From Candidatus Nitrosotenuis chungbukensis (lineage in GTDB: Archaea > Thermoproteota > Nitrososphaeria > Nitrososphaerales > Nitrosopumilaceae): 64,000 bases of DNA. A model generated the notes under the pieces. The model did not search any database. It had not been told where the DNA came from and saw only the letters and a list, made by a program, of their open reading frames with translations. Location: assembly GCF_000685395.1 (NCBI RefSeq), contig NZ_AVSQ01000009.1:62001-126000 (forward strand). The letters run 5' to 3'. The position numbers and the translations under genes are program-made. Positions within the stretch are counted from its first letter, which is position 1. Each line of letters begins with the position of its first letter. Below, piece after piece: positions 12,842 through 19,046 of this stretch.

Positions 12842-14977
12842 TTAGGCTACTGCCGATGTAGACGTTGGGGCGACTCGAACTTTTCGAACTGCCTCTACTA
12901 GGTCGTTCTGTGTGATCTTGATTTCTTTGACTGACTTTTTCTCACTGCTGACATATCTTCTTAGTGCAGCAAATGCAGCCCTATCGCATACTGCGGCAAT
13001 CTCTGCCCCGCTGTATCCGTTTGTCATTTCTACGATCTTTGCCAAGTCAACGTTTGATTCAAGTGGTTTTTTCTTTGTGTGAATCTCAAAGATGTGCTTT
13101 CGTCCTTTTTCGTCTGGTTTTGGAACCTCGATTATCCTGTCAAATCTTCCAGGTCTTAACAAGGCAGAATCTACCATGTCTAACCTGTTTGTCGCACCAA
13201 TCACCAGTACGTCGTTTAACTCTTCAAGGCCATCGATTTCTGTGAGTATTTGTGATACTACATTTTCTGAAACGTGCGAAGAATCCATTCCACTTCTTGT
13301 TGGAATGAGCGCATCTATCTCATCGAAGAATATGATGCATGGCGCAGCCTGCCTTGCTTTTCTGAATATCTCTCGTACTCCCTTCTCTGACTCGCCAACC
13401 CACTTTGATAGCAGCTCAGGCCCCTTTACGCTGATAAAGTTAGATTCGGTCATCTTTGCAATTGCCTTTGCGATCAGGGTTTTTCCAGTACCTGGTGGAC
13501 CATGTAGGAGAATTCCCTTTGGCGCTGCAACGTCGACATATTCTAGTGCCTCTTTGTGCTTTAGTGGCCACTCGATTGCCTCGTGTAACTCTTCTTTGAG
13601 CGACTCTAATCCACCTACGTCATCCCATGTTACGTTTGGCACCTCTACTAGGACCTCTCTTAGCGCGGATGGCTTTACCTCTTTGAGAGCTTCTTTAAAG
13701 TCGTCAGACGTTATCTTGATTTTCTGCAGTATTTCAGCTGAAATCTTGTCCTGTGCAAGGTCGATTTCTGGCAAAATTTTTCGAAGCGATCTGATTGCAG
13801 CTTCTTTTGCCAATACCTCAAGATCCGCTCCGACAAATCCATGCGTTACCTTTGCAATTTGTTGTAGGTTTACGTTCTCCTCAACTGGCATTCCACGGGT
13901 ATGGATGTTTAGAATTTCCAGCCTTCCTTCCTCGTCTGGAATTCCTATCTCAATTTCCCTGTCAAATCGTCCTGGCCTTCTAAGTGCCGGGTCAATTGAG
14001 TCTGGCCTGTTTGTTGCGGCAATCACTACAACTTTGCCCCTTGATTTCATCCCGTCCATCAGTGTCAAAAGCTGGGAAACGATTCTTTTTTCTACCTCGC
14101 CTGATACCTCGTCACGCTTTGGCGCAATGGAGTCGATTTCGTCGATAAATATTATGCTTGGAGTGTTTTCTTCTGCCTGCTTGAACACATCACGTAGTCT
14201 TTCCTCGCTTTCTCCATAGTATTTTCCAAAGATTTCAGGGCCGGAAATTGAAGTAAAGTGCGCGTTTGTCTCGCCTGCAACTGCCTTTGCAAGAAGGGTT
14301 TTTCCCGTGCCCGGAGGTCCGTACAAAAGGACACCTTTTGGAGCCTCGATTCCTAGCTTTTCGAAGAGCTCAGGATGTCGCATTGGCAACTCTACCATTT
14401 CTCTAATCTTTATGACCTCTTTTCTTAGTCCGCCCAGATCGTCATATGTTATCCTTGGTACGGAATTGTCAACTGCCTTTGTCATGGAGCCTAGCTTGAA
14501 TGTGGTATCCTCAGTTACAATTACCGGCTTTGCGGGTGTGGTTGCAGTTACAACAAGCTGAGTTTTTCCACCAAGCTGTGTATTTACTATGATGGTATCG
14601 CCAGTTGTAAAGACATGTCCCTCATACAAAGAAGACATGTATTCCTGTAGCCCTTCAATCGATATTTTCTCAATTGGGGACAAGACAACCTGTTCTGCCT
14701 CTGCGGCGTTTACACCTTTGACTGAAACCTTTTCGCCGATTCCTGCGCCAATATTGTGCCTTGTCAAGCCGTCAATTCTGATAATCCCAGTACCAAAATC
14801 ATCGCCCGAGCTTGGCCAGATTTTCACATGGGTCTTCTTGTTTGCCATGAGCTCTACGATTTGGCCTGCCTGCCACTTGTTGTCCTTTACTACTTTGGGA
14901 TCGATTACAGCTATTCCCTTTCCAACATGTCGTTGGGAAATCTCATCAATTTTTAATATTATTTCACTCATTTTCAT
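12842..14977 (-). CDS. CDC48/VCP-like AAA+ ATPase
   Basis: About 711 residues: an N-terminal double-psi barrel region (residues 1-180), a D1 ATPase with Walker A GPPGTGKT near 222 and [10 protein letters not shown], then a D2 ATPase with Walker A GPPGTGKT near 495 and [10 protein letters not shown]. The arginine-finger motifs [10 protein letters not shown] and [10 protein letters not shown] are in place. Hexameric CDC48 unfolds or extracts proteins, in archaea often feeding the proteasome. TTG and GTG codons lie just upstream, but ATG 14977 gives the usual start MKMSEIILK. It follows hsp20 by about 20 bases, so the two form an Hsp20-CDC48 proteostasis operon. Confidence 0.95.
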
Positions 14978-14996: not shown

Positions 14997-15503
14997 TTAG
15001 TTAACCTCCACTGTTTTGCCCTTTGGCTTTTGCTCCTTTAGCTTAAAGACCATCTCCAAGATCCCATTTGTATATGTGGCCTTTACCGAGTCCTCATCTA
15101 CCTCATGCCTTATCGGTGCATTGCCGTGGTACTTTTTCTCACCGTGTTCTGCATCAATGTGTACTGTTTTGCCCTCAACTACAACGCTGATGTCTTTCTT
15201 CTCGACACCTGGCATTTCCGCAATCAGTTTGAGGGTTTTTTCCTTTTCGTCAATAATCGCATCGATTAGTGGCTCCCTGGATTCTGAGCTTGGGAGTAAC
15301 CCGGGCTTTACATTTCCATATTCTTTTATCACAGGCTTGCCGTCTTGTCCAACGGTCATTGAATAACCGTAATAGAATGGACCAAAAGTCGTGCTACCTG
15401 ATTTTCCAGATTCCTCAAAGACATTGTCTAGATCCATAAAGGAGCTGGACATTTTCTTGAAGATTCTGTCAAATTCGTCGTCGAATAACACTGTCATATT
15501 CAC
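14997..15503 (-). CDS. Hsp20 / alpha-crystallin family chaperone
   Basis: 168 residues. The alpha-crystallin domain covers about residues 80-168: KTLKLIAEMPGVEKKDISVVVEGKTVHIDAEH, then VKATYTNGILEMVFKLKE with the conserved G-I-L motif. The N-terminal arm has a flexible, glycine-rich stretch. It acts as a holdase for unfolding proteins. GTG 15503 and ATG 15497 are both possible starts; the TATA-like box at 15527-15537 is 28 bases from the GTG. It is the first gene of an operon with CDC48, with a palindrome-like element overlapping the expected transcription start. Confidence 0.92.
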   Translation of the reverse strand: MNMTVLFDDEFDRIFKKMSSSFMDLDNVFEESGKSGSTTFGPFYYGYSMTVGQDGKPVIKEYGNVKPGLLPSSESREPLIDAIIDEKEKTLKLIAEMPGVEKKDISVVVEGKTVHIDAEHGEKKYHGNAPIRHEVDEDSVKATYTNGILEMVFKLKEQKPKGKTVEVN

Positions 15504-15508
15504 CTAGG

Positions 15509-15524
15509 GTATGTAATATACATG
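15509..15524 (-). promoter_or_regulatory. Candidate operator overlapping the hsp20 transcription start
   Basis: Read on the minus strand this is CATGTATATTACATAC, between the TATA-like box (15527-15537) and the start codon. Almost the same sequence, CATGAAATTACATAC, occupies the same position before the gene at 16586 (16589-16603). Confidence 0.5.
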
Positions 15525-15538
15525 ACATTATTTAAAGA

Positions 15539-15568
15539 TTATGTAATTTCTTAGATAAAATTACATAA
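15539..15568. promoter_or_regulatory. Inverted repeat between divergent hsp20 and ACT-domain promoters
   Basis: TTATGTAATTT (15539-15549) and AAATTACATAA (15558-15568) are perfect 11-base inverted arms with an 8-base spacer. The repeat sits just upstream of the hsp20 TATA-like box on one side and of CTAATAAATC (15571-15580, 26 bases before GTG 15601) on the other, so one regulator could control both genes. Confidence 0.55.
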
Positions 15569-15600
15569 GACTAATAAATCTGACACCACATAAAGTTCTT

Positions 15601-16263
15601 GTGAGAACAACCATTGCTTCCGTGCCAGAAGCGGTAAGGGAGATCATAACTAAGAATCGCTCAATTTATGACTGCATGAAAATGGACGTCATTAACTATA
15701 CTGCGCTTGCAGTCAAAATCCAGCCAGATGTTGAACGCCAGATTGGCAATCCTGTGAATCTCAATACTATCGTGGTTGCGATAAAGCGCTACGCTGATTC
15801 ATTTTTAGAAAAAGACGAAATCAAGACAGAGTCCATACTGAAAAACGCTAGGCTTTCTTTGACTGATGGAATACTGAACATACGATTCTCAACAAACGAG
15901 CTTGATGCAAACGAGGCGGCATCCCTTATGAACAAGTTTTCAGAGATGGACTCCGATTACGAGTTCTTTAGACTGGCTGATTCGTTTAGGGTCCTAACCG
16001 AGGATCTAGTTGATGTCAGAAAACTCTTCGAGTCATTCCCACACGAAAAGGAGCTGTTTAGTACGGGACTTGCAAAAATCAAAATCAGAATATCGCAGGA
16101 GCAAAATCGCTCCGACGTGGTATCGTATGTTGCAGAACTACTCCACAGCAACGGAATCGAGCTTGAAAATGCATTTTTTTCCCAAGACGACATAGTGTTG
16201 GTCCTAAAGGAAGAGGATGCATCAAAGGCATATGAAATTTTGAGAACAGAAATTTCTAGATGA
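15601..16263 (+). CDS. ACT-domain-containing archaeal protein
   Basis: 220 residues from a GTG start. The N-terminal half (VREIITKNRSIYDCMKMDVINYTALAVKIQPDVERQIG) resembles the helical domain found in archaeal proteins of the DUF7523 type as I recall them. The C-terminal part (LAKIKIRISQEQNRSDVVSYVAELLHSNGIELENAFFSQDDIVLVLKEEDASKAYEIL) has the ACT fold pattern for small-ligand sensing. Function is not known; a regulatory role is likely. It is divergent from hsp20 and shares the inverted repeat at 15539-15568. Confidence 0.7.
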   Translation: MRTTIASVPEAVREIITKNRSIYDCMKMDVINYTALAVKIQPDVERQIGNPVNLNTIVVAIKRYADSFLEKDEIKTESILKNARLSLTDGILNIRFSTNELDANEAASLMNKFSEMDSDYEFFRLADSFRVLTEDLVDVRKLFESFPHEKELFSTGLAKIKIRISQEQNRSDVVSYVAELLHSNGIELENAFFSQDDIVLVLKEEDASKAYEILRTEISR

Positions 16264-16265
16264 GC

Positions 16266-16586
16266 TTATACACCAGATAATTCGGCTTTAGAGATCTCAA
16301 GGTAAACCTTGTCGCCTACTGATATGCCAAGATCCTTGTATTCCCGCATGTCTACCTTGAGTGATGTAAGGCCGCTTTGTCCCCCAAATGCCCCTCCAGA
16401 TAACATCTTGTTTAGGTTTTTCATCATGTCGTCCATGTTTGTAAATCCCATCACTCCTCCACCAAATGGAGACTGGAGCGGCTGATTGCTTTCCTTAAAA
16501 TCCTTGGTTAGCGACAATGACAGTATGACATATGGCGCGCCGTCTGGTGCTGCGTCAATTCTGACCACGACATATTCTTTCTTCAT
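16266..16586 (-). CDS. Small conserved hypothetical protein with glycine/methionine-rich linker
   Basis: 106 residues. The start (KEYVVVRIDAAPDGAPYVILSLSL) and the end (LKVDMREYKDLGISVGDKVYLEISKAEL) look like beta strands of a small barrel, the end resembling AbrB/OB-like edges. The middle (about residues 38-75) is rich in Gly, Met and Phe (GGGVMGFTNMDDMMKNLNKML). There is no signal peptide. It converges with the ACT-domain gene, two bases apart. Its promoter has a TATA-like box near 16606-16616 and the CATGAAATTACATAC element shared with hsp20, so it may belong to the same stress regulon. Confidence 0.7.
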   Translation of the reverse strand: MKKEYVVVRIDAAPDGAPYVILSLSLTKDFKESNQPLQSPFGGGVMGFTNMDDMMKNLNKMLSGGAFGGQSGLTSLKVDMREYKDLGISVGDKVYLEISKAELSGV

Positions 16587-16588
16587 GA

Positions 16589-16603
16589 GTATGTAATTTC
16601 ATG
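16589..16603 (-). promoter_or_regulatory. Second copy of the hsp20-type candidate operator
   Basis: On the minus strand CATGAAATTACATAC lies between a TATA-like box (16606-16616) and ATG 16586. It matches the hsp20 element CATGTATATTACATAC in both sequence and placement. Confidence 0.5.
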
Positions 16604-18146: not shown

Positions 18147-19046
18147 ATGCCGTTTTTTTTAGATGTACACAAGCTTGGAGATTACAGTAGACATGAGCTT
18201 GAAAAATCGATAAGTGAAGGCATAGATGAATTTGGCGTCAAGGTTTATCAATTACTGTTTAACAAAGATGAAGACGTTTTGTATTGTATTTGTGAGGCTC
18301 CGTCAAAAGAATCGATAATCAATCACCATAAAAAATTCGATTGTATTTGCGATAGGATAGTAGAAACTGATTACATAAAAACAGCAGAGATGCTAAAATC
18401 AGAAAAGCTGCAGACAATAGGTGAACTTGCAGCAAGAATTGCTCATGATCTTAGGAATCCACTATCGGTAATCAAAGGTTCCTTGGAGATAATGCACCTC
18501 AAAAATCCGGAATTATACGAAAAATCTCATGATGATTTTGACAGAATAAACAAATCAATGATCAGAATCATGCATCAAGTTGACAACGTACTCGATTTTG
18601 TAAAGCCAAAACAGCTGCGTTTAGAAAAAATGAAAATTTGTAGAATAATTGAAAATTCACTTCTAAAGTTAAATATTCCAGACGGAATAAAGATCACTTT
18701 TACAAAACTTGACTATGAATTAATTTGCGACGAAGAAAAACTCGAAATCGTGTTTGTCAATCTCATTTCAAACGCAATTCAGGCGATCAATGATAAAGGA
18801 AAAATTGATATCAGAGTTTTTGATAATGGACAAAACATCGTAATAGAAATCGAAGATTCAGGTCATGGAATTCCGGAGTACATAGTACCAAGAATTTTTG
18901 AGCCATTGTTTACCACTAGACAAATTGGAACAGGACTTGGATTACCAAGCTGCAAAACCATTGTAGAGCAACATGGTGGAAAAATTAGCGTTAAAACAAT
19001 GTTAGACAAAGGAACTACATTTATCATTGAACTGCCAAAATTGTAA
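18147..19046 (+). CDS. Histidine kinase fused to an N-terminal DUF4242 (SCO4226-like) domain
   Basis: 299 residues. Residues 1-75 (MPFFLDVHKLGDYSRHELEK..., CICEAPSKESIINHHKK) match DUF4242, the family of the SCO4226 nickel-binding protein, here apparently as the sensor. Then comes a HisKA domain with H100 in IAHDLRNPLSVIKG, an N box (NLISNAIQAI), a G1 box (DSGHGIP) and a G2 box (GTGLGLPSC). There is no membrane segment, so it is a soluble kinase. No response regulator is adjacent, so it is an orphan kinase. A metal or small ligand may be the signal; this is inference. Confidence 0.85.
   Translation: MPFFLDVHKLGDYSRHELEKSISEGIDEFGVKVYQLLFNKDEDVLYCICEAPSKESIINHHKKFDCICDRIVETDYIKTAEMLKSEKLQTIGELAARIAHDLRNPLSVIKGSLEIMHLKNPELYEKSHDDFDRINKSMIRIMHQVDNVLDFVKPKQLRLEKMKICRIIENSLLKLNIPDGIKITFTKLDYELICDEEKLEIVFVNLISNAIQAINDKGKIDIRVFDNGQNIVIEIEDSGHGIPEYIVPRIFEPLFTTRQIGTGLGLPSCKTIVEQHGGKISVKTMLDKGTTFIIELPKL

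Follow-up and report, generated by a model that had tools for sequence, protein, structure and literature searches.

A conserved palindrome at the hsp20-cdc48 promoter of Candidatus Nitrosotenuis chungbukensis: a putative heat-shock operator and its candidate repressor

Ammonia-oxidizing archaea dominate nitrification in the sea and in soil, and the locus described here raises the question of how such organisms might control the synthesis of their chaperones and unfoldases. The hsp20 gene serves as a field stress marker for this group (PMC11334935), and our literature search found no description of heat-shock regulation of the kind considered below in ammonia-oxidizing archaea. Reviews name only two heat-shock regulators in archaea; both come from Euryarchaeota, and neither controls thermosome genes (PMC9133787, PMC10653856). 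The window, a stretch of 64,000 nucleotides of Candidatus Nitrosotenuis chungbukensis, contains hsp20, encoding a small heat-shock protein [14997..15497, minus strand; NCBIfam NF041800 equivalog, 185.6 bits for a cut-off of 140; PF00011, 34.8 bits]. It is followed on its 3′ side, in the same direction, by a gene for a CDC48-type AAA+ unfoldase (12842..14974, minus strand; Pfam CDC48_N, AAA twice and CDC48_2), and a gene for a protein with two ACT domains (15601..16263, plus strand) is divergent from it. An earlier note on this DNA proposed that a repeated ATGTAAT-type element, found before hsp20, in an inverted repeat between the divergent genes and before a downstream gene for a 106-residue protein, lets one repressor control all three units. 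A defined operator together with a named candidate repressor would make proteostasis control in these archaea directly testable, and the operator sequence would offer a handle for predicting stress-responsive chaperones.

The palindrome at the hsp20 promoter

All three sequences singled out in the earlier note are present where it placed them, and the one nearest to hsp20 is a real element with wrongly drawn edges. The stretch 15509-15524 reads GTATGTAATATACATG (minus strand CATGTATATTACATAC), and the true element is an 18-bp palindrome, ATGTAATATACATGACAT (15511..15528, unstranded; consensus ATGTAATR-nn-YATKACAT), which abuts the hsp20 TATA box, as an alignment of the DNA between hsp20 and the ACT gene in 30 genomes (seven genera) shows. 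We assign this TATA box, TTTAAATA (15529..15536, minus strand; family consensus TTATATAA), from its position; TATATAA is kept in the sequence logo. Direct reading of the sequence gives the layout TTTAAATA-ATGTCATGTATATTACAT-(5)-AGGTGA-(2)-ATG on the hsp20 strand, where AGGTGA (15500..15505, minus strand) is a Shine-Dalgarno-like motif before the ATG at 15497, and AGGTG is kept before hsp20 in most aligned loci.

The core of the palindrome occurs with at most one mismatch at 76 of the 80 named Nitrosopumilaceae loci (exactly in 71 and with one mismatch in 5), so that the comparison with relatives proposed earlier finds the hsp20 site conserved across genera. Its distance to the ACT start is nearly fixed across the 80-locus set, mostly 87-92 bases. 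TGTAAT and ATkACA show practically no variation across the 75 loci aligned, with an information content of 1.9-2.0 bits except at the G/T position, an invariance that is slightly flattering because this logo set was selected at ≤1 mismatch, which leaves the 76/80 count unaffected; in the intergenic stretch 33-47 bases from the palindrome the information content falls to 0.1-1.0 bits. With a position matrix built from 71 other loci, the palindrome reaches 27.8 bits; the second-best site of the window reaches 10.9. The palindrome is far beyond chance, unlike the shorter words first noted, and looks like the place where a heat-shock repressor not described before would bind.

Distribution of the palindrome and the second hsp20 locus

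We searched 66 Nitrosopumilaceae genomes for the 16-mer TGTMATRNNYATKACA and compared the matches with all Hsp20 domains found there. The palindrome occurs one to three times per genome, and its placement, for which a genome-wide search had been suggested, is non-random: 76 of 97 sites lie ≤800 bp from an Hsp20 start, for a chance expectation of ~0.3%, the 97 sites sharing descent and thus not being independent, which does not affect the direction of the enrichment. The 21 sites away from an annotated Hsp20 comprise the hsp20/ACT site of one genome (G016), a canonical site whose hsp20 escaped the Pfam scan, one site that precedes a thermosome gene, seven repeat copies from G016, located close to transposase-like genes and masked DNA, and 12 remaining sites, to be compared with 12 for a reversed-pattern control in the 66 genomes. 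The link of the operator to chaperone genes is near-exclusive. By hand count, all 53 ACT-bearing genomes among the 66 carry the palindrome at 0-1 mismatch.

Two further occurrences deserve mention on their own. In G016, TGTCATAAATATGACA recurs beside transposase-like genes (L138, L140-L142) as a mobile repeat carrying the same core palindrome. In the genome under study, a near-perfect palindrome with a perfect core, TTGTAATAAATATTACAT, is found on another contig (C16:71581; L040 1501-1518), some 30 bases ahead of a gene for a winged-helix-like protein of 93 residues; this third site is absent in the close relative G076, and we take it as due to chance and not as a regulon member.

The same genome has a second operator (contig C2:139023) between a second hsp20 gene, hsp20-2, and a divergent thermosome paralog. 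This arrangement, palindrome included, is also found in five relatives (G034, G076, G050, G062 and G022), and in G065 the palindrome precedes the thermosome paralog. In Nitrosopumilus-like genomes the divergent partner at the second locus is a ~69-residue Cys/His zinc-finger-like protein, and a second palindrome often lies directly upstream of the TATA box of its gene; this small protein could be a regulon member or a co-regulator. This conserved protein is seen divergent from or beside the operator at second hsp20 loci of several Nitrosopumilaceae (L295-L300, L302). The main thermosome genes and the other hsp20 genes of the genome under study have no operator upstream. At the level of sequence, an operator and a chaperone regulon of ammonia-oxidizing archaea are well supported.

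The ACT-domain protein and the proposed circuit

The protein encoded by 15601..16263 appears to have an N-terminal helical domain resembling DUF7523 and, after it, two ACT domains. It falls just below the curated Pfam cut-off for DUF7523, a family without known function (26.6 bits for a cut-off of 27), and below that for ACT_7 (22.9 for 27); DUF7523 (PF24367) weakly matches the N-terminal ~80 residues in 12 of 16 class-wide members, with E 1.4e-6 for the best one. The AlphaFold2 model (pLDDT 81.7) predicts four helices in the N-terminal domain and then the two ACT domains, and its secondary structure, together with Foldseek, agrees with the beta-alpha-beta-beta-alpha ACT fold. The ACT pair (residues ~84-219) resembles the regulatory domains of aspartokinase (Foldseek E 1e-6, TM ≤0.69 by target); unlike in aspartokinase, it comes without a kinase domain and is fused to a conserved helical domain. 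This N-terminal domain is the best-conserved part of the protein class-wide (0.49 vs 0.25 and 0.35). It gave no significant PDB match by fold, the protein has no HTH family match in Pfam, and a PDB sequence search for relatives returned nothing. With the ACT protein as measure, the closest named loci are those of a groundwater Thaumarchaeota MAG (96%) and of Candidatus Nitrosotenuis (91-92%), which marks the window as part of a Nitrosotenuis-like genome.

The ACT-domain gene is present class-wide, in 255 of 300 genomes. Outside the family its homologs adjoin hsp20-cdc48, either divergently or in a single ACT-hsp20-cdc48 operon (L248, L250), cdc48 alone (L261, L265) or a thermosome gene (L254, L257, L260). 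The exact 14-mer GTMATRNNYATKAC lies ≤170 bp upstream of 13 of 25 such homologs, for 0.015 in dinucleotide shuffles; the other 12 are without an exact palindrome upstream. In some distant relatives (L256, L258) the divergent neighbour of the ACT gene encodes a ~170-residue protein, Lrp/AsnC-like by eye, and at L258 a perfect palindrome, TGTCATACCTATGACA, lies between the two genes. One genome, G015, has several operators, and no ACT gene was found in it; we do not count it as a case against the ACT protein, since its contig C187 breaks off directly behind NDH2, at the point where the ACT gene follows in the sister genome G033 (L155, L293).

The ACT gene starts at the GTG at 15601 and is probably leaderless. 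Its TATA-like box, CTAATAAAT (15571..15579, plus strand; consensus CTATTATAA in relatives), is preceded by the conserved half-site ATTACAT (15560..15566, plus strand), which is the right arm of the inverted repeat, and followed by a second half-site, TGACAC (15581..15586, plus strand; consensus TGACAT, logo positions 70-75). Such TKACAT half-sites flank the box as a direct repeat in 66 of the 80 loci, which would fit with autoregulation; the ACT promoter itself carries half-sites only and no full palindrome.

From these elements the following circuit may be proposed. The operator would fill the stretch between the hsp20 TATA box and the expected transcription start, a position that points to repression via the palindrome: with a dimeric repressor on it, polymerase would not be recruited to hsp20-cdc48 until unfolded protein, heat or another stress displaced the repressor and allowed Hsp20 and the CDC48 unfoldase to be produced. 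This operator would also control hsp20-2 together with the divergent thermosome paralog or the small zinc-finger gene. The palindrome sits where the regulator Phr has been reported to block polymerase recruitment (PMC9133787), and the natural reading is a repression that stress lifts. It is fairly probable, in our judgement, that the DUF7523-like/ACT protein is the repressor of this presumably autoregulated heat-shock circuit. Its helical N-terminal domain would bind the DNA, and the two ACT domains would serve in dimerisation and in sensing a ligand or the state of a protein. Autoregulation would act through the half-sites on either side of the TATA box of its own gene. ACT domains often bind amino acids, and for this reason a ligand for the candidate repressor is possible. 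Tentatively, the Nitrososphaeria might possess a third, unrelated type of archaeal heat-shock repressor, an ACT protein through which chaperone, unfoldase and a thermosome gene are coupled to a signal from a small molecule or amino acid, in place of temperature or alongside it.

The operator and its regulon could also be real and the repressor encoded elsewhere, the ACT protein being merely controlled, for example as a signalling or modulating subunit. We hold this to be rather unlikely, even if the ACT protein has no recognised DNA-binding fold, its promoter bears half-sites and not the palindrome, and operators occur at loci without an ACT gene, the zinc-finger-like ones among them. Against it, the ACT gene is the constant class-wide neighbour of the operator, even where no hsp20 is adjacent; and the zinc-finger-like gene is missing from the second locus of the genome under study, where a thermosome gene stands in its place. 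It is very improbable that the palindrome is instead a core-promoter element or an activator site of hsp20 promoters, recognised by variants of TBP/TFB or RNA polymerase. The palindrome does abut the TATA box, and the heat response of haloarchaeal hsp5 requires BRE and TATA only (PMC9133787), but the dyad symmetry, the lack of the motif at other promoters and, unlike what holds for a core element, its presence, at second loci, on the upstream side of the TATA box of the divergent gene speak against such a role.

The original proposal, a single repressor that reads ATGTAAT-type half-sites at hsp20, at the inverted repeat and before the 106-residue gene, has become the least probable of these readings. 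In its favour, GTATGTAATT or GTATGTAATA precedes both hsp20 and the 106-residue gene in the window, and the site before the latter, GTATGTAATTTCATG (16589..16603, unstranded), is kept in the five closest genomes examined (L010-L014); it is, however, a lone half-site, absent from 18 other loci of the genus and of other genera, which have an unrelated promoter there, and on this ground we reject the 106-residue gene as a regulon member. Its position relative to TATA box and start, said to equal that at hsp20, does so only roughly (2 bases from motif to ATG, 11 at hsp20). The inverted repeat (15539..15568, unstranded), with perfect 11-bp arms TTATGTAATTT/AAATTACATAA and an 8-base spacer, has its left arm in the closest relatives only; in L016-L025 and other genera this arm is absent and the right arm kept. 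The repeat is a lineage-specific pairing of two half-sites and is not supported as an operator of its own. Both elements score at background with the palindrome matrix, the word ATGTAAT shows no enrichment over the window (17 occurrences vs 13.4 expected), and the pattern ATGTAATNNNCAT, with nine scattered matches, was not informative. What stands of the proposal is the common cis-element at the chaperone and unfoldase genes. It overlooked the true palindrome and the hsp20/thermosome pair elsewhere in the genome, and it described the ACT protein as controlled and sensor-like, when this protein is more likely the regulator itself.

The 106-residue protein itself (16266-16586) has no Pfam or NCBIfam match, is strongly conserved across the family and is mostly encoded with the ACT gene on one side and an NDH2-like gene on the other. 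Note also that the window encodes, at 18147-19046, a soluble histidine kinase with an N-terminal SCO4226-like (nickel-responsive) domain, which is an unusual pairing.

Comparison with HSR1 and Phr

Returning to the ACT protein as candidate repressor, the proposed circuit shares several traits with that of HSR1 of Archaeoglobus fulgidus: what appears to be repressor-type control of hsp20, a regulon of small heat-shock protein and AAA+ ATPase, a palindromic site that may serve autoregulation, and a regulator gene linked to hsp20, in places within one regulator-hsp20-cdc48 operon. It differs in its operator, which is TGTAAT-N4-ATTACA and not the CTAAC-N5-GTTAG of HSR1 (PMC9133787), and in a candidate regulator without an HTH family match. 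With Phr of Pyrococcus furiosus it has in common a small regulon in which hsp20 is joined by an AAA+ ATPase, presumed autoregulation and, judging by position, a site that overlaps the transcription start and would block polymerase recruitment. The Phr site is made of TTTA, TGGTAA and AAAA over 29 bp (PMC9133787); reading the promoter directly, TGGTAA is absent from the hsp20 start region here, and, unlike Phr, the candidate regulator carries two ACT domains. Thermosome genes lie outside the HSR1 and Phr regulons (PMC10653856), whereas a thermosome paralog is included here. The joint control of hsp20 and an AAA+ ATPase that marks both known systems would be exerted at the hsp20-cdc48 operator, which is kept across genera. 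Judged by its genes and promoters, the circuit thus seems to be a member of neither family and to work like both, with an operator of its own.
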